From positions 1-64,000 of the forward strand of contig JAFQHO010000029.1 in NCBI GenBank assembly GCA_017397925.1: a DNA stretch of 64,000 nucleotides. Reading direction: 5' to 3'. Origin of the DNA: Ruminococcus sp. GTDB lineage: Bacteria > Bacillota > Clostridia > Oscillospirales > Ruminococcaceae. The notes below the pieces were generated by a model. The model saw only the letters and a program-made list of their open reading frames with translations, did no database searches and was not told the DNA's origin. Below, piece after piece: positions 2,045 to 64,000 of the stretch (positions are counted from its first letter, which is position 1; each line of letters starts with the position of its first letter). Position numbers and translations under genes: made by a program.

Positions 2045-2566
2045 TTAAAATATTTCCGCACTCTCCTTAAATCCCACCGCTTTTTCGGGATATGCAGAGC
2101 TGATATATTCGTAAAGCTTCATAAGTTCCACTTCTTCGGCTTTACCTGCAATAATTTTTCCTATAGTATCACTTTCGATTTTATGGCAGAGATGCCCAAG
2201 CACATTCTCATCTTTATCTTCAAATACAACATCTAACGTATACCACTTGCTATATCTTGCATAATGAGAAGAAACTGTATAATACGCAGATTTTACCTGT
2301 TCCATATCAAATTCCCACTTGTAAAACAGCCATTTACAGTATATTTTATCGCCTTCGCCGTAACTGACTTCTGTTTTAACTGAGTCTGCAATTAATAAGA
2401 AAACCACTGCAATAAAAATGGCTATAAACCAAAATGCAACACAGACAATAATAGCTTCACCATTTCCGAATATACCCATAAACAATATCAGCATACCCAA
2501 AACTGCGATAGCTGTAGGTATTACAGTTGCAAACCAAGGTTTATGCCATATGATTAGCTTTTTCAT
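2045..2566 (-). CDS. Hypothetical membrane protein bracketed by a 39-bp repeat
   Basis: The product is about 173 residues. Two hydrophobic helices near the N-terminus (about 10-30 and 34-60) are followed by a soluble, mixed alpha/beta C-terminal half with no motif I recognise. The start is set by GGGGGA eight bases upstream of ATG at 2566; an open frame continues upstream to 2623 but runs through the 39-bp intergenic repeat, so it is not taken as coding. The gene is flanked on both sides by exact copies of that repeat, as if it had been inserted or duplicated as a unit. Function unknown. Confidence 0.7.
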   Translation of the reverse strand: MKKLIIWHKPWFATVIPTAIAVLGMLILFMGIFGNGEAIIVCVAFWFIAIFIAVVFLLIADSVKTEVSYGEGDKIYCKWLFYKWEFDMEQVKSAYYTVSSHYARYSKWYTLDVVFEDKDENVLGHLCHKIESDTIGKIIAGKAEEVELMKLYEYISSAYPEKAVGFKESAEIF

Positions 2567-2597
2567 TTTAAATTCCCCCAAACCATATATCAAAGGG

Positions 2598-2636
2598 CGG
2601 CAGAAATAAATTCCACCGCCCACATAGCTAACAGCT
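2598..2636. repeat. 39-bp direct repeat, copy 2
   Basis: This is an exact copy of 2006-2044 in the same orientation. It leads directly into an AGCTAA/GGCTAA array. Confidence 0.9.
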
Positions 2637-2659
2637 AAAGGCTAAAAGCTAATGGCTTA
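2625..2659. repeat. AGCTAA-type short repeat array
   Basis: Iterated units such as AGCTAACAGCTAAAGGCTAAAAGCTAA (written here in pieces: AGCTAACAGCTAAAGG, then CTAAAAGCTAATGG). The same family recurs at 5477, 12332, 13005, 13572, 14045 and 14149-14252, always between genes. Confidence 0.75.
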
Positions 2660-2662
2660 TAA

Positions 2663-3565
2663 TTATGCCATTAACTTAACCATAACAGCCTTCTGTGCGT
2701 GAAGTCTGTTTTCAGCTTCCTCAAAGATTTCCTTAGCGTGAGCCTCGAATACCTTTTCTGTGATTTCCTCCTCACGGTGTGCAGGGAGACAGTGGAGAAC
2801 CATTGCGTCAGACTTTGCACAAGCCATAAGGTCATCATTTATCTGATAGCCTGCAAATGCCTCACGACGCTTTGCAGCCTCGTCCTCCTGTCCCATAGAT
2901 GCCCATACGTCAGTAATGAGAACATCTGCGTCCTTAGCTGCCTGAGCAGGGGAGTTTGTCATCTCGAAACAGTCATACTGTGCAGCAAAATCAAGAATTC
3001 CCTTTGGTGGCTGATAATCATCGGGACAAGCAATAGAAACTGCCATACCCATTTTAAGACAGCCTACGATGAGAGAGTTTGCCATATTGTTACCGTCGCC
3101 GATAAAGCACATTTTGAGTCCCTCAAGCTTTCCCTTGAACTCACGGATAGTCATAAGGTCAGCAAGTACCTGACAAGGGTGACAGAAATCTGTAAGACCG
3201 TTGATAATCGGAATGCTGCCGTATTCAGCAAGTGCTTCAACCTCGCTCTGCTCGAATGTACGAATCATAATACCGTTAAGGTAACGTGAAAGAACGCGTG
3301 CTGTATCCTGCACAGGCTCGCCTCTGCCAATCTGTAAATCGTTGGAGGAGAGGAACAGGGGATAGCCGCCAAGCTGATACATACCTGTTTCAAATGAAAC
3401 TCTTGTACGTGTAGAAGCCTTCTGGAAAATCATACCCAGTGTCTTACCCTTGAGGTGAGGGTGGGGGATGCCGTGATTCAGCTCATACTTAAGCTGGTCG
3501 GCAAGGTCGAGGATTTCTGTAATTTCCTCTGTTGTAAGGTCAAGCATTTTAAGCAGATGTTTCAT
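2663..3565 (-). CDS. argF: Ornithine carbamoyltransferase
   Basis: This enzyme joins carbamoyl phosphate and ornithine to give citrulline, the sixth step of arginine synthesis, in the cytosol. The 300-residue length is typical. The carbamoyl-phosphate motif STRTRVSFE is at about residue 52, HPCQ at about 129, the ornithine-site DVWASMGQE at about 217, and the catalytic HCLPAHR at about 257. The start has AGGA ten bases upstream. It is the last gene of an argD-LURP-argF group, separated from its neighbour by a 62-bp gap containing an 8-bp-stem hairpin. Assignment is firm. Confidence 0.97.
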   Translation of the reverse strand: MKHLLKMLDLTTEEITEILDLADQLKYELNHGIPHPHLKGKTLGMIFQKASTRTRVSFETGMYQLGGYPLFLSSNDLQIGRGEPVQDTARVLSRYLNGIMIRTFEQSEVEALAEYGSIPIINGLTDFCHPCQVLADLMTIREFKGKLEGLKMCFIGDGNNMANSLIVGCLKMGMAVSIACPDDYQPPKGILDFAAQYDCFEMTNSPAQAAKDADVLITDVWASMGQEDEAAKRREAFAGYQINDDLMACAKSDAMVLHCLPAHREEEITEKVFEAHAKEIFEEAENRLHAQKAVMVKLMA

Positions 3566-3595
3566 ATGTATCTATCCTTTCAAATAAATATGTAT

Positions 3596-3617
3596 GACGG
3601 CATACAGCGATGCCGTC
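3596..3617 (-). terminator. Hairpin between LURP-like gene and argF
   Basis: GACGGCAT and ATGCCGTC are perfect 8-bp arms around a 6-base loop. It is not followed by a clear T-run on the minus strand, so it may be an attenuator, a processing site or a partial terminator in front of argF. Confidence 0.45.
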
Positions 3618-3627
3618 TGTTTGTGGG

Positions 3628-4119
3628 TTATCTTAATTCTCTATTCATTTCGCCGAAGGTGATATCTATCGCAAGGGCAAAGAGGGGAATGTAATCATCA
3701 AACATTTTATCCTCTATTTCAAGGTCATACTGAAGTTCTTGAGCCGCGGTAATACTTGTTTTTATAGAACCAACCTTCACATCTCCCTTTATAATATCAA
3801 AGTTGCGGTGGTCCTTACTTGCAATATCATATTTAATAACAGTTCCCTGTATATCCTTTCCCTCTACATTGATTGTCGGGTCGAGGAAAAGAGATTTACA
3901 ATTAAGCTGCATTATTGACACATCATTATGACTGATAGTAAATATGGGCTTACGCTCCATTGTGAGCTGTGTAAAAGAATAGAGCTGGTAATTGCTTGGA
4001 TCCATCAGCACATAACGCGGTGCGCCGAAGCCTTTCTTCTTTATTGTGTATATCTGTCTCTGATGTTTTTTATCCTGAACAATATATTTATTGTTCTTGA
4101 AAGAAATCATAAGCTCCAT
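3628..4119 (-). CDS. LURP-one/tubby C2-like protein
   Basis: The product is 163 residues, beta-rich and without signal peptide or membrane helix. The pattern of short strands, with YIVQDKKHQRQIYTIKKKG near the N-terminus and FDIIKGDVKVGSI near the middle, resembles LURP-one-related proteins with a tubby C-terminal-like fold. This is a resemblance, not a proven match. Its GGAGG sits inside the end of argD, with only three bases between the two genes, so translation is probably coupled to argD. Role unknown; it shows the interleaving of arg genes with unrelated small genes seen across this cluster. Confidence 0.75.
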   Translation of the reverse strand: MELMISFKNNKYIVQDKKHQRQIYTIKKKGFGAPRYVLMDPSNYQLYSFTQLTMERKPIFTISHNDVSIMQLNCKSLFLDPTINVEGKDIQGTVIKYDIASKDHRNFDIIKGDVKVGSIKTSITAAQELQYDLEIEDKMFDDYIPLFALAIDITFGEMNRELR

Positions 4120-4122
4120 AAA

Positions 4123-5289
4123 TCAATCCTCCAAAATAGCAATAAGTATATCCATTCCTCTTTCAAGCTCATCACTGTCAATATTAAGGGGAGGGAGAAG
4201 TCTTACTTTTGTTTTAGCCGTCAATATGAGCAACCCCTTTTCAAGAGCAGTTTTTACAACATCTGCGGCATTTTTATTTTTGAGAGTTATACCTATCATA
4301 AGTCCGAGACCGCTTACTGAATCAACCTCAGGGCAAGCTTCAAGTCTTTTTCTTATGTATTCAGCCTTTGCATTTACATCATCGAGGAAGCCTACGCCTG
4401 TAACCTTGGAGAATACAACATTTCCTCCTGCACAAGCAATGGGATTTCCGCCGAAAGTGGAGCCGTGTGTGCCTGGGACAAGTACATTCATTGTCTTTTC
4501 ACTGAAAAGACACGCACCCATTGGAATACCGCCCGCAATACCCTTTGCAAGTGTGGTTATATCGGCTTTTTTGCCGTAATGCTCACCTGCAAGAAGCTTT
4601 CCTGTACGTCCTACGCCTGTCTGAACTTCATCGGCGATAACAAGGATATCACGCTGTCCGCATATCTCATAAACAGCGTCTATATACTCCTTATCAAGGG
4701 CAACAACGCCGCCCTCACCCTGAACGTATTCAAGCATAACAGCGCATACCGTGTCATCAATCTTAGCCTTGAGGTCGTCGATATTATTTGCCTCAGCGTG
4801 GACAAATCCCTCTAAAAATGGGAAGAAGTAGTTGTGGAATACATCCTGTCCCGTAGCGGAAAGGGTAGCCATTGTACGGCCGTGGAATGAATTCACAAGG
4901 GTGATTATAGTATGTCTGCCCTTGCCGTATTTGTCAAAGCTGTATTTTCTTGCAGTTTTTATAGCACATTCGTTAGCCTCAGCGCCGCTGTTGCAGAAAA
5001 ATACTCTTTCATAGCCCGTAGACTGGCATAGAAGCTCTGCAAATTCGCCCTGAACTGACGTATAGTAATAGTTTGAGCTGTGCTGGAGAGTTCTTACCTG
5101 ACGGCATACAGCCTCTGCCCAGTCATCGTCGCAGAAGCCCAGGGAATTCGTACCGATACCGCTGCCGAAATCAATGTATTCATTATTATTTTCATCTGTG
5201 CAGATTCTTCTTGAGCCTGCCGCCATAACAAGCGGATATCGTCCGTATGATTTCACAACATTTGAATCAAATTTACTTATAGTACCCAT
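4123..5289 (-). CDS. argD: Acetylornithine aminotransferase
   Basis: This PLP enzyme transfers an amino group from glutamate to N-acetylglutamate semialdehyde, making N-acetylornithine. At 388 residues it has the normal length. Visible class III aminotransferase features are the NSGAEANE phosphate-binding region at about residue 101, the DEVQTGVGRTGK motif at about 220, and the PLP lysine in TTLAKGIAGG at about 249. GGAGG lies twelve bases before the ATG. A good promoter sits upstream (5358-5387), so argD-LURP-argF can form its own transcript. Confidence 0.96.
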   Translation of the reverse strand: MGTISKFDSNVVKSYGRYPLVMAAGSRRICTDENNNEYIDFGSGIGTNSLGFCDDDWAEAVCRQVRTLQHSSNYYYTSVQGEFAELLCQSTGYERVFFCNSGAEANECAIKTARKYSFDKYGKGRHTIITLVNSFHGRTMATLSATGQDVFHNYFFPFLEGFVHAEANNIDDLKAKIDDTVCAVMLEYVQGEGGVVALDKEYIDAVYEICGQRDILVIADEVQTGVGRTGKLLAGEHYGKKADITTLAKGIAGGIPMGACLFSEKTMNVLVPGTHGSTFGGNPIACAGGNVVFSKVTGVGFLDDVNAKAEYIRKRLEACPEVDSVSGLGLMIGITLKNKNAADVVKTALEKGLLILTAKTKVRLLPPLNIDSDELERGMDILIAILED

Positions 5290-56814: not shown

Positions 56815-58413
56815 TTATTCTGCCTCTGCTGTTGTAGCTTCTGCTGTAATTTCTTCTGTTGTTTCTTCTGTATTTTCAGTAGTTTCTATCTCTGTATCGG
56901 TATTTTCCTCAGTTTCAGAGGTGTTTTCTGTATCTGTTTCCTCTGCATCATCTGTGCTGTAATCGGAAATATACCACTTTATTTCACTTCCGTCGTATTC
57001 TTCAACAGTAACTGATTCCATAACAACGTCTGCAAGAGGCTTATCGTCGTCATCTGTTAAGGTTTTCTGTATCTCAAAAACAACGTCAAGACCGTCAATA
57101 ACCTGTCCAAAAACAGTATAGCCGCCGTCAAGGAAAGGAGTACCGCCTGTTTTTTTATAAACTTCCTTTACTGTATCACGGAAATTATATCCTTTTTCTG
57201 CAAGGTCAGCAAAACCTGCGTCGTCGTAAACTTCACCTGTAACAATATAGAACTGACTGCCGTTTGTAGCTGTAGAGCCTGAATTTGCGTATGCTACAGC
57301 ACCTGCAGCGTGAATAAGGTTATAGTACTTGCCGCCGTCGAAAGAACCGCCCCAGGTAGACTCGCCGCCCATACCGTTGCCCTCAGGGTCACCGCCCTGA
57401 ATCATAAAGTCCTTGATAATTCTGTGGAATGTAAGTCCGTCATAGTAGCCGCTTTTAGCAAGCTCAATGAAGTTTTCAGAAGCCTTAGGTGCAGCCTCAG
57501 GGAAAACGCGGAATTTAACAGTTCCGTAGTCCTTGAAGTTAATAACAACGATTTCATCGCCTTTTTCAGGAGCTGTGAAGTTAAGAGGAGTTGCATCCTC
57601 AGGATTTTCGTAGTCATAGTCGCTGAGTGTCCACTTGATAGGCTCACCGTTGTACTTTGAAAGCTTTACAGACTCCATAACAACGTCGTTAAGGGGCTTA
57701 TCGTTTGCGTCTGTAGCTGTGTACTGAATTTTGAAGATAACATCAAGGCCGTCAATAACCTGTCCGAAAACGGTATAATTGCCGTCAAGGAAAGGAGTAC
57801 CGCCATACTGCTTGTATAATTCCTTCTGATTTTCAGTGAATGAATAGCCATAACCCTCATATGTTGTGAAAAGAGTGTCATCAATGTTATGCTCACCTGT
57901 AACAATGTAGAACTGGCTGCCGTTTGTGTCTGTAGAACCTGAATTTGCATAAGCAAGAGCACCTGTAACGTGAGCAAGGGCAGGATTTGTACCGCCGTCG
58001 AATTTACCGCCCCAGGCAGATTCACCGCCTGTACCGTTGCCGTTTGGGTCACCGCCCTGAATCATAAAGTCCTTGATAATTCTGTGGAATGTAAGTCCGT
58101 CATAGTAGCCTTTTTCGATAAGCTGTGTGAAGTTATCGCAGGCTGTAGGCGCATAATCGGGGAAAAGTCTGATTTTTACAGTACCGTAGTCCTTGAAATT
58201 GATTTCAACGATAGTATCTCCATTTTCAGGCGCTGTAAAGTTAACAATCTCCACATTTTCAGCAGGCTTTGTATCAGCTTCGCTTTCGCCGATAACAATC
58301 TTGGAAGATTCACCTTCTGTTGTATTTGTTTCAGTGAATGTCTTTCCGCAGGCTGTAAGCATTGAAGCTGCTGTAAGTCCGCATACTGCAAGGGTTAAAA
58401 ACTTTTTATTCAT
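56815..58413 (-). CDS. Lipoprotein with two tandem cyclophilin PPIase domains
   Basis: The 532-residue protein has a signal peptide with lipobox LTAC at about residue 22. Two cyclophilin-type peptidyl-prolyl isomerase domains follow (about 70-260 and 285-480), each with LTFHRIIKDFMIQGGDP and NSGST-TNGSQFYIVTGE. The last 50 residues are a Thr/Glu-rich tail. It would act as a surface foldase. The two domains share a 65-bp identical DNA block (57386-57450 and 58046-58110), pointing to recent duplication or gene conversion. GAGG precedes ATG. A third cyclophilin gene lies just upstream. Confidence 0.93.
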   Translation of the reverse strand: MNKKFLTLAVCGLTAASMLTACGKTFTETNTTEGESSKIVIGESEADTKPAENVEIVNFTAPENGDTIVEINFKDYGTVKIRLFPDYAPTACDNFTQLIEKGYYDGLTFHRIIKDFMIQGGDPNGNGTGGESAWGGKFDGGTNPALAHVTGALAYANSGSTDTNGSQFYIVTGEHNIDDTLFTTYEGYGYSFTENQKELYKQYGGTPFLDGNYTVFGQVIDGLDVIFKIQYTATDANDKPLNDVVMESVKLSKYNGEPIKWTLSDYDYENPEDATPLNFTAPEKGDEIVVINFKDYGTVKFRVFPEAAPKASENFIELAKSGYYDGLTFHRIIKDFMIQGGDPEGNGMGGESTWGGSFDGGKYYNLIHAAGAVAYANSGSTATNGSQFYIVTGEVYDDAGFADLAEKGYNFRDTVKEVYKKTGGTPFLDGGYTVFGQVIDGLDVVFEIQKTLTDDDDKPLADVVMESVTVEEYDGSEIKWYISDYSTDDAEETDTENTSETEENTDTEIETTENTEETTEEITAEATTAEAE

Positions 58414-58466
58414 AAAATATACCTCTTTTCACAGGTCTTTGGTTTTTACTCGTTAAATACCGGCCA

Positions 58467-58500
58467 ACTGTTATATACTGTTATATACTGTTATACAGTT
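58467..58500. repeat. Three ACTGTTATAT units upstream of the tandem cyclophilin gene
   Basis: AACTGTTATATACTGTTATA continues into TACTGTTATACAGTT: three 10-bp units ending in an inverted arm. It shares AACTGTTATA with the inverted repeat at 20822. Confidence 0.6.
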
Positions 58501-58686
58501 TTTCAGTTGTTTTTATATTTTTATGATATTTTTTCATAATGTACAGTCATAAAGACAGCACAAAACTGACGGTAATAAATCCGCTAACTAATTCATTATA
58601 CAACATATAAAAGCTTTTGTAAATAGTTTCGGCAAATTTTTGGTAAATATATATGATACCTCAATGCCAAATACTGAGAAATACGT

Positions 58687-59478
58687 TTATTTTTCAGCCT
58701 TATAAACGTCAATTTTCACAGAATTTATCATAATATCCTCTTTCGGAACTTTATAAATTCCGCTGTTTTCCGTTTCAAGAGAAGCAAGCTTTTCAACTAC
58801 TTCAATGCCCTCATAGGTCTGTCCTATAACTGTAAGCTGCTGAGAAAAGTTCGGTATACCGCCATTTTCCGCAAATGCCTCTCCGAGTTCTTTATTCTGT
58901 GAAGCATCCATAAGCTGCTTTTTGGTTTCCTCATCAAATTCAATTGAATTTATCACTGCAAAGCGGCTGCCGTTGTAGTACATTCCGCCGCCAAACACTT
59001 TCTGCATAAATGTGCGGTCTACAGTGGTATTCATAGCGCATACAGCGCCTTTGAAAGGCCATAAATCCTGGTGAAGCTCACGCTCTATAAGCTCCCTGTC
59101 AACATCGTAACCCTCAGGCATTTCGCCGCTTTTCAGCTTGCTTCCTGCGGCGGAATATGCTCCGCTGTCGGAGTTGAATACATATGTGCCGTCATAGTAA
59201 CCCATTTCTGCAAGCTCTGTGAAGTTTTTCACTGCATTTGGGGATTGCTGGGGATACAGCACAAATCTGAACTCGCCCAGAGTAGTGTCCACAATAGCTA
59301 TAGGTTCCCCTTCTTTCGGCGGTTCAAGCTGGATAAGCTTCATTGTATCGGGATCTATTTCAATAAATGAATTGTTGACGTTCTGCTGTGTCCGCGCATA
59401 AAGCAGGAATACTGTCAGCACCGCAAAAACTATGGCAGTTATTATCACAAAACGTGCAAGTCCGTTCTTTTTCTTCAT
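58687..59478 (-). CDS. Membrane-anchored divergent cyclophilin-like PPIase
   Basis: The 263-residue protein has one N-terminal TM helix (about 9-27), then a cyclophilin-like domain with VDTTLGEFRFVLYPQQSP at about residue 62 and NAVKNFTELAEMGYYDGTYV. The usual FHRxxxxFMxQGGD block is missing or degenerate (FNSDSGAYSAAGSK), so catalytic activity is doubtful. It lies upstream of the tandem cyclophilin lipoprotein on the same strand, and the two may serve the same extracytoplasmic folding job. AAGGA precedes ATG. Confidence 0.85.
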   Translation of the reverse strand: MKKKNGLARFVIITAIVFAVLTVFLLYARTQQNVNNSFIEIDPDTMKLIQLEPPKEGEPIAIVDTTLGEFRFVLYPQQSPNAVKNFTELAEMGYYDGTYVFNSDSGAYSAAGSKLKSGEMPEGYDVDRELIERELHQDLWPFKGAVCAMNTTVDRTFMQKVFGGGMYYNGSRFAVINSIEFDEETKKQLMDASQNKELGEAFAENGGIPNFSQQLTVIGQTYEGIEVVEKLASLETENSGIYKVPKEDIMINSVKIDVYKAEK

Positions 59479-59713
59479 TTCTATCCGTTCCTTTTCGCAA
59501 TTTTATCCATTTTATATTATAACACTATTTTAATGAAAATGTCAAGGAGTTATGATTTTTTAATGTATTTTCTTTATGCCGAGTATTTGATGGTAAGAGC
59601 GCAGTATTTTATTGTACGATACCGTATTGACAAGGCTTGTCGTTGCAATACACAAAGAAACGCCATAATATTTGTTGGATTTCACTGAATTTTTATTAAA
59701 TATGAGGAAACAT

Positions 59714-59742
59714 TTGCAACGCTGTGAGGTTTATGGTATAAT
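59714..59742 (+). promoter_or_regulatory. Promoter of the EamA/NhaC operon
   Basis: TTGCAA at 59714-59719, a 17-bp spacer, and TATAAT at 59737-59742, about 25 bp before the ATG. Confidence 0.7.
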
Positions 59743-59772
59743 AAGTAGGAATTATGAAACGGAGATTGATAT

Positions 59773-60696
59773 ATGAAACAAAAACTGAAAGGAAATATAA
59801 TCCTGCTTATCACCGCTATTATATGGGGTACGGCATTTGTCGCCCAAAGCGAGGGTATGAATTATGTTGAACCTTTTACATATAATGCCGTGCGGACGCT
59901 TATCGGCGGTATCGTCCTTATACCCATTATCGCTATTTTCCAACGCGGCGGGGTTTCATCGGAAAACGGTGCAAAATCGCAGAAAACAACTATAATCGGT
60001 GGTATTGTATGCGGAATATTCCTTTTCATTGCAGGGTCATTCCAGCAATGCGGAATTGCTATGACTACTGCAGGAAAAGCCGGCTTCATAACCGCCCTTT
60101 ATGTGACTATTGTCCCCCTTATTGAAGTTATATTGTACCGAAAATCAAGCCTTAAAGTCTGGCTGTGCGTATTTCTCGCCCTCGCAGGCTTTTATATGCT
60201 GTGTATCAAAGAGGGATTTACCATAGGCAAGGGCGATTTGCTTGTGCTGTGCGGTGCTTTCTTCTATGCAGGACATATTATGGTAATTGACCGCTTCAAC
60301 GAAAAGAATGCAGATGGTATGAAAATGTCCTGTATACAGTTCTTCACGGCCGGATTGCTTATGACTGTATGTATGTTCATTTTTGAAAATCCCGAAATAA
60401 ACGCAATAATGGACGCTAAATATACTATTTTGTATGCAGGTATTATGTCCTGCGGTGCGGCTTATACATTGCAGATAATCGGACAGAGATACACCGACCC
60501 TACCTCTGCAACGCTTATTATGAGCCTTGAATCTGTATTTGCTGCTCTTTCAGGTTGGATAATCCTCAGCGAATCCCTTTCAATAAAAGAACTTTTCGGC
60601 TGCACACTGGTATTTGCTGCCGTTATTCTGAGCCAGTTGGGAGCTTCATCTCTCCCTGAAATAAAGATTAACAAATCCAAAGGAGAAAAAACATGA
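59773..60696 (+). CDS. EamA-family (DMT) exporter
   Basis: This 307-residue protein has ten hydrophobic helices in two EamA repeats (about 5-140 and 155-295). TAIIWGTAFVAQSEGM is at the start and SLESVFAALSGWIILSE near residue 258, typical of drug/metabolite transporters. The substrate is unknown; amino acid or metabolite export is common. GGAG lies eight bases before ATG. Its stop overlaps the antiporter start (ATGA), so the two are coupled. Confidence 0.92.
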   Translation: MKQKLKGNIILLITAIIWGTAFVAQSEGMNYVEPFTYNAVRTLIGGIVLIPIIAIFQRGGVSSENGAKSQKTTIIGGIVCGIFLFIAGSFQQCGIAMTTAGKAGFITALYVTIVPLIEVILYRKSSLKVWLCVFLALAGFYMLCIKEGFTIGKGDLLVLCGAFFYAGHIMVIDRFNEKNADGMKMSCIQFFTAGLLMTVCMFIFENPEINAIMDAKYTILYAGIMSCGAAYTLQIIGQRYTDPTSATLIMSLESVFAALSGWIILSESLSIKELFGCTLVFAAVILSQLGASSLPEIKINKSKGEKT

Positions 60697-62339
60697 AAAA
60701 ACATCTCAGCAAAATTATTTTTGCACTTCTTGTTATTATATTTATAATAATTTGTGCAATAACCGCCCCAATTACGGAATCCGCAGGTACGCTGTGGTCA
60801 CTTCTACCGCCTGTAGTGGCAATCGGACTTGCCCTCATTACAAAAGAGGTATACTCCTCACTGTTTATCGGCATTGTTACCGGCGGTATATTAACCGCTG
60901 CAAATGCAGGAACAGGCTTTGAGGGTATGTTCACAGCAATTGTACAGGAAGGCTTCATAGCCAACCTTGCAGACAGCTATAACGTGGGAATTCTCATATT
61001 CCTCGTTGTTCTCGGTGCAATAGTCGTGCTTATGAACAAGGCAGGCGGCAGCCGTGCCTATGGCGAATTGGCCGCAAAGCATATTAAAAGCCGTGCAGGA
61101 GCGTGTATATCCACATTTTTCCTGGGTGTACTGATATTTGTAGACGACTATTTCAACTGTCTCACAGTAGGCTCAGTAATGCGTCCCGTAACGGACAAAT
61201 ATAAGATTTCACGTTCAAAGCTTGCTTATCTTATTGACTCCACGGCGGCTCCCGTATGCATTATCGCCCCAATTTCATCCTGGGCGGCAGCAGTAAGCGG
61301 AACAGTTGAGGGTGTTAACGGAATACAGCTGTTTATCAGCACTATCCCCTATAACCTCTATGCAATCCTCACCCTTTTAATGGTTGTATTCGTAGCTCTT
61401 ACAGGTATGGACTTCGGCTCAATGAAGCTTCACGAAAATAACGCAGCAAAGGGAGATTTATTTACAACACGCAGCACAGTATATGCTGCAGACGACAAGC
61501 CCTCTCACACAAAGGGCAAGGTAATAGACCTTATACTTCCCGTTGTTATACTTATTTCCCTCTGCATTTTAGGAATGATTTACACAGGCGGATTTTTCAG
61601 CGGAAAGGATTTCATCAATTCCTTTGCTGACTGTGACGCATCCTATGGACTTTCTCTCGGCTCAATGGCTGCACTTATTGTTATAATCGGATATTTCCTT
61701 TGCAGACGTGTCCTCACATTTACAGAGTGTATGGACTCAGTTGCAGCAGGCTTTAAACAGATGGTACCTGCAATACTTATCCTCACCTTTGCATGGACTC
61801 TCAAGACAATGACAAGCTTCCTTGAAGCAGGTGTGTTTGTATCGGGTATTGTTGAAGGTGCAACAACTTTAGATTTATTCCTTCCTCTTATACTTTTCGT
61901 TGTTGCAATCGGACTTGCATTTGCTACAGGTACATCCTGGGGAACATTCGGTATACTTATTCCCATTGTTACAAGTGTATTTTCAACAGAAATTGCTGAG
62001 GTATCAAGCAGCGGAGATATCCCCTCAATGGTAATTATCTGCATTTCCGCCTGTCTCGCAGGTGCTGTATGCGGCGACCACTGCTCACCTATATCAGATA
62101 CAACAATTATGGCGTCAACAGGTGCACAATGTGACCATGTAAACCACGTATCAACACAGCTGCCCTATGCCCTGACAGTAGCCGCTGTAAGTGCTGTAGG
62201 ATATCTGTTATCCGGCTTTATTCAGAATATATTCATCGTTCTGGGTGTATCGGCTCTTCTGATGATTGGCGTACTTGTTGTACTGAAAATGATTACAGGT
62301 TCTGCAAAACCTCCAAAACCTGCAAAGGCAAAAAAATAG
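60693..62339 (+). CDS. NhaC-type Na+/H+ antiporter family protein
   Basis: The 548-residue polytopic protein has about twelve helices. VAIGLALITKEVYSSLFIGI near residue 45, LIDSTAAPVCIIAPISSW at about 180, ATGTSWGTFGILIPI at about 408 and GDHCSPISDTTIMASTGA at about 455 are the conserved blocks of the NhaC/ion-transporter superfamily group. It probably exchanges sodium for protons or for an organic substrate. The four-base overlap with the EamA gene suggests a coupled transport role. A hairpin terminator follows. Confidence 0.92.
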   Translation: MKKHLSKIIFALLVIIFIIICAITAPITESAGTLWSLLPPVVAIGLALITKEVYSSLFIGIVTGGILTAANAGTGFEGMFTAIVQEGFIANLADSYNVGILIFLVVLGAIVVLMNKAGGSRAYGELAAKHIKSRAGACISTFFLGVLIFVDDYFNCLTVGSVMRPVTDKYKISRSKLAYLIDSTAAPVCIIAPISSWAAAVSGTVEGVNGIQLFISTIPYNLYAILTLLMVVFVALTGMDFGSMKLHENNAAKGDLFTTRSTVYAADDKPSHTKGKVIDLILPVVILISLCILGMIYTGGFFSGKDFINSFADCDASYGLSLGSMAALIVIIGYFLCRRVLTFTECMDSVAAGFKQMVPAILILTFAWTLKTMTSFLEAGVFVSGIVEGATTLDLFLPLILFVVAIGLAFATGTSWGTFGILIPIVTSVFSTEIAEVSSSGDIPSMVIICISACLAGAVCGDHCSPISDTTIMASTGAQCDHVNHVSTQLPYALTVAAVSAVGYLLSGFIQNIFIVLGVSALLMIGVLVVLKMITGSAKPPKPAKAKK

Positions 62340-62355
62340 TATAAAGTCACTTTAT

Positions 62356-62389
62356 AAATCCCCTGAAACGTATGTGTTTCGGGGGATTT
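62356..62389 (+). terminator. Terminator of the EamA/NhaC operon
   Basis: AAATCCCCTGAAAC pairs with GTTTCGGGGGATTT around GTATGT, a 14-position stem with one G-T pair. Confidence 0.75.
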
Positions 62390-62410
62390 GTTCAGAACAG
62401 ATAATTACAC

Positions 62411-62440
62411 ATCAGGGAATCAATTATGAGGTTCCCTGAT
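62411..62440. terminator. Second hairpin before the ABC transporter operon
   Basis: ATCAGGGAA and TTCCCTGAT form a perfect 9-bp stem with a 12-base loop, 18 bases upstream of the next promoter. It could be a terminator without Ts or an operator. Confidence 0.45.
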
Positions 62441-62457
62441 GAAATACACATTAATTC

Positions 62458-62487
62458 TTGACTTTGCTTTGCAATATGTGATATAAT
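62458..62487 (+). promoter_or_regulatory. Promoter of the amino-acid ABC transporter operon
   Basis: TTGACT at 62458-62463, an 18-bp spacer, and TATAAT at 62482-62487. Confidence 0.7.
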
Positions 62488-62520
62488 AAATGTATTATTA
62501 ATATAAGGTAGGTTTTTACT

Positions 62521-63303
62521 ATGAAAAAGATTTTATCCACAGTTTCGGCAGCTATCCTCTGCCTCACACTTTTCGCAGGATGCAGCGGTACAAAGGAAAA
62601 TACTGTACATACTGCCGATGACCTTAAAAACAAGACTATAGGCGTTCAGCTTGGTACTACAGGCGACGCTCTTGCAGGCGATGTTGAAGGCGCTACAATT
62701 GAGCGTTACAACAAGGGTGCTGACGCTATACAAGCTCTCAAACAGGGCAAAATTGACGCTGTAATCATCGATAATGAGCCTGCAAAGGTTTTTGTTGAAA
62801 AGAACGAGGGCTTACAAATTCTCAACGAAGAATTTGCTGTTGAAGAATACGCTATTGCTATCAAAAAGGGCAATACTGAGCTTACCGAGGCTATAAACGG
62901 CGCTCTTGCCGAGCTTAAGGCTGACGGTACACTTGCAAATATCGAAAAGAACTGGATTGGCGAGGAATACGGCAAATATCCCTATACTTCTCCGGAGGGT
63001 ACAGAATATCCCAACGGCAAGCTTATTATGTCTACAAATGCAGAATTTCCTCCCTATGAGCTTCTTGAAAACAACGAAGTTGTGGGATTTGACGTTGATA
63101 TGATGAAAGCTGTCTGCGATAAGCTTGGCTATGAGCTTGAAATTGAAAATATCGCTTTCGATTCCATTATCGCTTCCGTTAACAGCGGAAAAGCTGATGT
63201 TGGCGTTGCAGGTATGTCCGTTACTGAAGATAGACTGAAAAACGTTGATTTTACTGACGCTTATACAACTTCCACACAGGTTATCATCACAAGAGCTGAC
63301 TGA
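62521..63303 (+). CDS. Circularly permuted amino-acid ABC transporter substrate-binding lipoprotein
   Basis: The 260-residue lipoprotein has a signal peptide with lipobox FAGC (Cys about residue 21). It shows all SBP_bac_3 blocks, but in swapped order. First comes the lobe 2 part, with DDLKNKTIGVQLGTTG at about 35, NKGADAIQALKQGKIDAVI at about 64 and the C-terminal helix ELTEAINGALAELKADGT at about 119. A linker follows. Then the lobe 1 part, which normally begins the protein: LIMSTNAEFPPYELLEN at about 168, VGFDVDMMKAVCDKLGY, GMSVTEDRLKNVDFT and a final strand. The total length is that of one domain, so it is a permutation, not a duplication. The ABC permease follows 15 bases later. Confidence 0.85.
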   Translation: MKKILSTVSAAILCLTLFAGCSGTKENTVHTADDLKNKTIGVQLGTTGDALAGDVEGATIERYNKGADAIQALKQGKIDAVIIDNEPAKVFVEKNEGLQILNEEFAVEEYAIAIKKGNTELTEAINGALAELKADGTLANIEKNWIGEEYGKYPYTSPEGTEYPNGKLIMSTNAEFPPYELLENNEVVGFDVDMMKAVCDKLGYELEIENIAFDSIIASVNSGKADVGVAGMSVTEDRLKNVDFTDAYTTSTQVIITRAD

Positions 63304-63318
63304 TAAGGAGTACACTAA

Positions 63319-64000
63319 ATGGAACTTATTAACAGCCTAAAAGATTCCTTTCATCAGAATTTTATTGCCGATGACAGGTGGAAATACCTTACTGACGGTC
63401 TGAAAAACACGCTGCTTATAACTATTCTTGCAATTCTTATCGGTATTATTCTCGGCTTTATTGTTGCTATTATCAGAGCTACCCACGATAAGACAGGAAA
63501 AATGAAAATTCTCAATTTCTTTGCAAAGATTTATCTTACAGTTATACGCGGCACTCCGGTTGTTGTTCAGCTGATGATTATTTACTTTGTAATCTTCGGA
63601 TCTGTCAATATCAACAAGATTTTCGTTGCCGTACTTGCTTTCGGCCTTAATTCAGGCGCTTATGTGGCTGAAATCGTCCGTTCAGGTATTATGTCAATTG
63701 AAAACGGTCAGTTTGAAGCAGGCTCCAGCCTTGGTCTGAGCTACCGTCAGACTATGACAAGCATTATACTCCCTCAGGCATTCAAAAATGTTCTCCCTGC
63801 CCTTGCAAATGAGTTTATCGTGCTTCTGAAAGAAACATCTGTTGCAGGCTATATCGCCATTGCAGACCTTACAAAGGGCGGAGATGTCATCAGAAGCCAG
63901 ACATATGACCCGTTTTTGCCCCTTATTGCCGTTGCGATTATATATCTTGTAATGGTAATGTTCCTTACATCTCTCGTTACTAAGCTTGAAAGGAGACTTG
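63319..64000 (+). CDS. Amino-acid ABC transporter permease (partial, runs off window)
   Basis: The visible 227 residues cover almost a whole His/Glu/Gln/Arg-type permease. An N-terminal LTDGLKNTLLITILAILIG is followed by VIRGTPVVVQLMIIYF at about residue 76. The EAA motif region is EAGSSLGLSYRQTMTSIILPQ at about 133, and KETSVAGYIAIADLT is near 175. Five hydrophobic helices are seen. It partners the binding protein upstream and an ATPase expected beyond the window. AAGGAG lies before ATG at 63319. No stop codon occurs before position 64000. Confidence 0.93.
   Translation, partial: MELINSLKDSFHQNFIADDRWKYLTDGLKNTLLITILAILIGIILGFIVAIIRATHDKTGKMKILNFFAKIYLTVIRGTPVVVQLMIIYFVIFGSVNINKIFVAVLAFGLNSGAYVAEIVRSGIMSIENGQFEAGSSLGLSYRQTMTSIILPQAFKNVLPALANEFIVLLKETSVAGYIAIADLTKGGDVIRSQTYDPFLPLIAVAIIYLVMVMFLTSLVTKLERRL

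Follow-up and report, generated by a model that had tools for sequence, protein, structure and literature searches.

The window analyzed here, a stretch of 64,000 nucleotides, contains on its forward strand a gene (62521..63303, encoding 260 amino acids plus stop) for an amino-acid-binding lipoprotein in which lobe 2 and the closing helix were predicted to precede lobe 1, the reverse of the usual SBP_bac_3 order. The locus therefore raises the question of whether this is a working, naturally circularly permuted binding protein, and whether such a permutation is a single oddity. The ORF, its coordinates and its lipobox had all been identified correctly: the lipoprotein signal peptide with the lipid-anchor Cys21 (LFAGC) is encoded at 62521..62583 (+), and Cys21 is nearly invariant among relatives (alignment A1). 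A possible ribosome-binding site read from the sequence, AAGGTAGG, lies at 62505..62512 (+), and a weak candidate for a sigma-70-like promoter (TTGACT-18-TATAAT, 11 of 12 matches) lies at 62458..62487 (+), from a consensus scan that found 5 promoters against 2.6 (sd 1.5) in shuffled sequences. A search of positions 58000-64000 for RNA elements returned none at gathering score.

Three database comparisons gave the same reversed order. Pfam PF00497 matched the protein (E = 9.1e-39) in two stretches of reversed order and, over the whole domain, scored 132.7 bits against a cutoff of 26.4, with the order rotated. NCBIfam TIGR01096 also matched in two stretches (E = 2.8e-42), below its curated cutoff, as did all 13 listed NCBIfam families (with GlnH, ArtI, ArtJ, HisJ and cystine SBP among them); rotation lowers whole-protein scores, and these full-length annotation models score permuted proteins below their cutoffs. 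Finally, a phmmer search of the PDB returned 132 distinct sequences at E ≤ 0.001 (best 60 of 132 listed), of which the best was AncQR (4zv1), an ancestral Gln/Arg binder, with residues 164-258 of the window protein aligned to AncQR 8-103 and residues 27-148 to AncQR 107-233. The canonical order of lobe 1, lobe 2 and closing helices is thus absent, and each block occurs once, rotated and homologous to the unrotated form, the blocks together spanning one domain of single-domain length, as had been predicted. This reversed order makes the protein a permuted member of SBP_bac_3 and not an ordinary one, and, as far as sequence comparison can establish it, we consider it confirmed that the window ORF encodes one circularly permuted family-3 amino-acid-binding domain.

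Database matches and segment profiles place the canonical second half first, with residues 28-149 (62602..62967, +) holding lobe 2 without its first strand, together with the closing helices. A linker between the former C- and N-termini follows; it comprises 15 residues (150-164; 62968..63012, +) instead of the predicted 17 or so, a difference that reflects the choice of edges, and its motif PYxxPEGxE is kept across the window's lineage. The canonical first half comes last, by the same kinds of evidence, with residues 165-260 (63013..63300, +) holding lobe 1, the first hinge strand and the first lobe-2 strand. To locate the break we used GlnBP (1ggg), whose residues 3-96 pair in the phmmer comparison with window residues 166-259, both stretches being 94 long and paired by their equal lengths. 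PMC13229503 gives the GlnBP hinge as 85-89 and the small domain as 90-180, and on that numbering the first hinge strand of the window protein would be residues 248-252 (63262..63276, +) and the C-terminus would lie inside lobe 2, 8 residues past the hinge strand and through the first lobe-2 strand. The proposal that the new termini fall at the hinge crossing was therefore rejected on the GlnBP numbering, which points to a break shortly after the hinge, in a loop of lobe 2; a break in this position keeps both inter-lobe crossings.

The residues expected to hold the ligand are present. Asp84 (62770..62772, +), taken as the ligand amino-group contact, is presumably the counterpart of GlnBP Asp157. 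Arg238 (63232..63234, +), the carboxylate contact, corresponds to GlnBP Arg75 by alignment offset in the PDB comparison. Across the permuted and canonical forms described below, the Asp was found in 63/63 single P1, 36/36 single canonical and 20/20 P2 proteins and in 17/23 tandem P1 units, and the Arg in 60/63, 34/36, 20/20 and 23/23, respectively. Asn173 occupies the position of GlnBP Asp10, and for this reason glutamine is not assumed as the substrate. The roles of the ligand-contact residues are those described in PMC7400645.

The permuted gene is followed by an importer permease gene (BPD_transp_1, HEQRo type by the ORF list, Pfam and NCBIfam; 63319..64000, +, continuing to contig position 64020) and, beyond the window, by an ATPase gene (contig positions 63986-64732). 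These three genes form one operon of the polar amino-acid ABC importer type (2521-3303, 3319-4020 and 3986-4732 in locus L004), of which the permuted protein is the only binding protein; the genome also encodes a canonical paralogue on another contig (halves 35 and 32% identical). Binding protein, permease and ATPase follow one another in this order in most of the loci, permuted or canonical, whose flanks are long enough, and in a few cases (e.g. L036, L040 and L245) no permease was found alongside the permuted gene. The conserved operon order and ligand residues support the earlier suggestion, made from operon context, that the protein is functional. The permuted chain would adopt the usual clam shape of two lobes, with its two hinge strands preserved, and would close around a polar amino acid bound by Asp84 and Arg238 before passing it to the adjoining permease and ATPase, the main mechanical change presumably being a lipid anchor attached to lobe 2 through a short spacer instead of to lobe 1. 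Most likely, the window protein acts as binding proteins of the GlnH/ArtJ type do, with its tether on lobe 2.

Several other features were observed in this neighborhood. A gene of the Na+/H+ antiporter family (PF03553; window 60693-62339, +) lies directly upstream of the importer operon, and a second importer operon, polyamine (Pot-type) by resemblance only, lies downstream of it (contig C17 65526-69692; L004 5526-9692). A lipoprotein-like 532-residue ORF (window 56815-58413, −) carries one sequence motif twice in one chain, and a second ORF of this kind, at window 58687-59478, carries a single copy of this motif, which we take to be cyclophilin-like.

Homologues with the same order were then sought, and many relatives proved to be permuted. 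In a scan for relatives across genome contigs, mostly from MAGs, 80 of 263 relatives were kept, and 41 of 60 genomes searched, counting the window's own, gave matches. Using segments b (residues 28-96), c (97-149) and A (165-258), a scan of 204 loci, duplicates included, identified 102 ORFs with the window order bcA (hereafter P1), 55 with the canonical order Abc and 20 with the order cAb (P2), and a further 30 that were fused, tandem or odd. The P1 gene was present in 13 of the 35 genomes of the same genus in that search, several of the others being incomplete, and in records titled Ruminococcus, Ruminiclostridium, Fournierella, Tyzzerella and Lachnospiraceae; outside the class it was found in L207. 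The window order occurs widely among Oscillospiraceae and their relatives, and order-wide (394 genomes) and class-wide (291) searches added further P1 and P2 genes among the matches listed, with loci taken from part of these matches. Segment order, ligand residues, operon order and these many relatives support a natural permutation of SBP_bac_3; the observation is real, and it is one of several permutations, not an isolated case.

Some loci combine several units. Eight single ORFs in the segment scan (L151-L158, e.g. L151 3263-6697) of about 1,130-1,210 amino acids are one-gene importers with two permuted binding domains, a permease and an ATPase (Pfam-checked in L151), and a 1,224-residue frame (L162 617-4288) has four tandem permuted binding domains followed by a permease. 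Two adjoining P1 genes (L195 2-1797) are 67% identical after re-ordering, and the tandem frames of L112 and L164 read bcAbcAcA in the segment scan, the third b segment being unmatched. In L233 (4039-8824), two importer operons adjoin; one encodes a canonical binding protein and the other a P2 form, and their permeases are only 36% identical.

On AncQR numbering, the permuted proteins break at four sites, all within lobe 2: between 103-105 and 107 in the window type (P1a); at 115|119 in P1b (L139, and L181, L183-L190, L193 and L194 by inspection of termini); at 135|141 in P3 (L216, with L217 alike); and at 178|185 in P2 (L166). PDB searches with L166 and L139 returned nothing at 1e-36, and their results are given from 1e-26. 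When AncQR was compared with L166, the long piece matched with an i-Evalue of 8e-30 and the short N-terminal piece, weak alone, with 0.014; this comparison and the segment scan, in which the short piece was detected in 20 ORFs, led us to reject a chance alignment as the source of the P2 pattern (95-260 then 17-96). A canonical control (L311) aligned with AncQR in one stretch.

Three chain orders were found within a single genus. Genome G1091 (L295) and the record titled Ruminococcus bromii strain YE282 (L037) have identical binding-protein rows, from which we infer that genus code g141 is the genus of R. bromii. Matches at E ≤ 1e-20 were obtained in 25 of its 30 genomes, and loci from 23 of these 25 comprised 7 P1 (L292-L298), 13 canonical (L299-L311) and 3 P2 (L312-L314) genes. 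Both trees of this comparison, which was limited to ORFs with a bcA, Abc or cAb core and left three P2 rows aside, contain a 17-row clade (support 99/95 and 100/100). Besides the R. bromii record, it comprises 6 canonical and 6 P1 genomes of g141 and 4 P1 genomes of a second genus, g148. Within the window's P1 lineage, permuted and canonical binding proteins are up to 74% identical after re-ordering, and the partners of that pair are 80% identical. The loop from segment A to segment b has 4 residues in the 6 canonical proteins of the clade and 3 in 51 of 55 single canonical rows, and a grouping of the P1 proteins of linker family I without the canonical row had an AU p value of 0.008 against it. 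The 4-residue loop, the linker of the surrounding P1 proteins and this test suggest that permuted proteins of the R. bromii genus reverted to the canonical order; this is not proven, since the canonical protein of G1113 groups with the P1 genomes G1102 and G1095 in the permease tree (100/99) and with other canonical rows in the binding-protein tree (99/91).

The spacer between the lipid-anchor Cys and the first domain residue, whose value depends on the domain edges, had a median of 6 residues in 55 P1 and in 18 P2 rows versus 18 in 33 canonical rows, once rows without a recognized lipobox (4 P1, 1 P2 and 3 canonical) were dropped. The difference between the 73 permuted rows and the canonical ones (Mann-Whitney p = 1.3e-5) persisted without the largest P1 group of 39 rows (p = 4e-5), both values being uncorrected for relatedness, and medians were 5-7 in each of five permuted groups; six canonical rows had spacers of 4 or less. 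We read this as permuted proteins being anchored through lobe 2 on a short tether, a geometry predicted from the sequences. Permutation may also reflect functionally neutral drift, in which the tandem duplication was resolved in the alternative frame and left transport and anchoring unaffected, a reading we regard as possible, if somewhat doubtful: the permease and ATPase partners of both orders are alike, as in the 80% pair above, and both orders coexist in one genus, but the confinement of all four breaks to lobe 2 and the short spacers suggest a shared constraint or benefit.

How often permutation arose was examined in trees for which all binding-protein units were put into one order beforehand. 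In a quick tree, for which 257 units were thinned at 80% identity to 150 and four ORFs that fit no simple pattern (L112, L164, L223 and L212) were left out, the single-P1 label changed 12 times, at least 6 of them forced by starred branches, with tandem P1 units counted as a separate group. A careful tree of 62 units, hand-chosen from these 150, had 6 P1 changes (bootstrap 5-6), and 0 of 200 bootstrap trees had one. A permease+ATPase tree of 95 neighboring pairs, from which binding proteins were excluded, had 11 P1 changes, at least 7 of them forced. A single P1 clade, and with it a single origin of P1, was rejected by AU tests on the binding-protein tree (p = 0.004) and on the permease+ATPase tree (p = 3e-61; 60 of the 95 operons, hand-chosen, without L192, L195, L216 and one L233 operon), the groups having been named after the trees were seen and the binding-protein test giving p = 0.06 for P1 minus L139. 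One linker family (like G..PYxSPEGTEYP) is shared by the lineages of the window, R. bromii and Fournierella, and the linkers of several other P1 lineages and of the P2 and P3 proteins are dissimilar to it. Taken together, the trees, AU tests, four break sites and lineage-specific linkers suggest that this operon type acquired permuted binding proteins on several occasions, with the remainder of the pump largely unchanged. It is rather unlikely that permutation arose only once or twice, its scattered pattern being due to binding-protein genes that were transferred horizontally and replaced one another in different operons; the conflicting positions of G1113, the linker family shared by several lineages and the unclear rejection of P1 without L139 would fit such a history, but the binding-protein tree itself requires its 6 changes, and the lineages differ in break sites and linkers.

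With several origins preferred, a broader reading of these sequences would be that the chain order of family-3 amino-acid-binding proteins is an evolving, reversible trait in Clostridia, with breaks in four lobe-2 loops and with anchoring geometry, not the binding site, under selection. We hold this only tentatively, the more so because the binding-protein and permease trees disagree on G1113. If true, the same importer type would have been permuted several times, with a reversion in the R. bromii genus and the anchor moved from lobe 1 to lobe 2 on a short tether.

Each permutation probably began when the gene was duplicated in tandem and in frame, its outer halves being lost afterwards. Relatives make this route plausible: in L141 and L143-L149 (e.g. 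L145 533-3532), tandem canonical units that share 79-94% identity are joined in frame to a permease, and near-identical tandems of this kind are possible intermediates. Another permease-fused canonical tandem has units 45% identical (L214), and one without a permease has units 81% identical (L218); the units of L141 and L143-L149 look recently duplicated or homogenized. The original prediction, duplication followed by trimming, is thus plausible, with no intermediate of the window's own event seen, and it is further favored by the linker length and junction alignment of GlnPQ described below. Overall, we consider it highly probable that the window gene encodes a working, single-domain permuted lipoprotein of the GlnH/ArtJ kind, one case of a recurrent permutation in the same operon type that probably arose via tandem duplication.

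A quite improbable alternative to this permuted monomer is that the halves pair between chains, forming a domain-swapped dimer or oligomer in which chain order matters for oligomerization. A domain-swapped arginine-binding protein is reported from Thermotoga maritima, and tandem permuted chains (bcAbcA) exist; against this, the linker, conserved in an alignment of 51 permuted proteins, is mostly 10-16 residues long in 105 single P1 genes (mode 15; 20-24 in 11/105), and, because both former ends are on one lobe in this family (PMC5087393), closure within one chain should be easy. An artefact, misassembly, fusion of partial genes or pseudogene is very unlikely, to the point of being negligible, and was rejected, since, even though the genome is an 87-contig assembly of 2.71 Mb (window in contig C17), the same order recurs in many independent records with open frames and conserved residues, including other MAGs at 97, 96, 90, 87 and 86% identity (L006-L010) and the R. 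bromii YE282 record at 59% (L037).

Compared with canonical SBP_bac_3 proteins (GlnH, ArtJ and AncQR 4zv1), the window protein has the same segments, ligand residues, lipoprotein export and operon partners, but its order is rotated, and its ends and lipid anchor are in lobe 2 instead of lobe 1. A related system is the tandem of GlnPQ (6h30), where window residues 23-257 align across the domain junction (96-328) and where the inter-domain linker has 14 residues (PMC8025302) versus 15 in the window protein. GlnPQ consists of two canonical domains fused to a permease, whereas the window gene encodes a single-domain lipoprotein that is free of the permease. This tandem was the only sequence to align through among the best 60 of 107 PDB sequences at E ≤ 1e-10, among which no single-domain permuted chain was found.

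Both natural and engineered permutants of binding proteins are already known. PMC2395249 reports glycine-betaine binders, molybdate binders and CysB as natural circular permutants detected with CPSARST at <24% identity. An engineered LAO-binding protein (PMC5087393), which belongs with the window protein to one broad family (type II, cluster F), was permuted by deleting one of two inter-domain links and joining the old ends by 12 residues, and still binds, with a Kd some 36 times weaker than the cited native value in a fluorescent-protein fusion; further engineered permutants of this family are reported in a 2017 chapter cited in PMC7683729. That construct was cut at an inter-domain strand, whereas the natural break, on the GlnBP numbering used above, spares both hinge strands. 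No natural permuted family-3 amino-acid binder was found in the literature searched, most subscription papers lying outside its reach, and no passage on permutation was found in two papers on OpuA. The natural permutations found in print concern distant families, identified by structure (CPSARST), in which the event and its effect are not testable, whereas the pairs described here are shallow, up to 74% identical in the binding protein and up to 80% in its partners, within one operon type and in some cases one genus, which makes it testable how permutation happens, whether it is reversible, and how the anchor's lobe affects an ABC importer. As judged from these sequences, the unusual part is this recurrence at shallow divergence inside one operon type.
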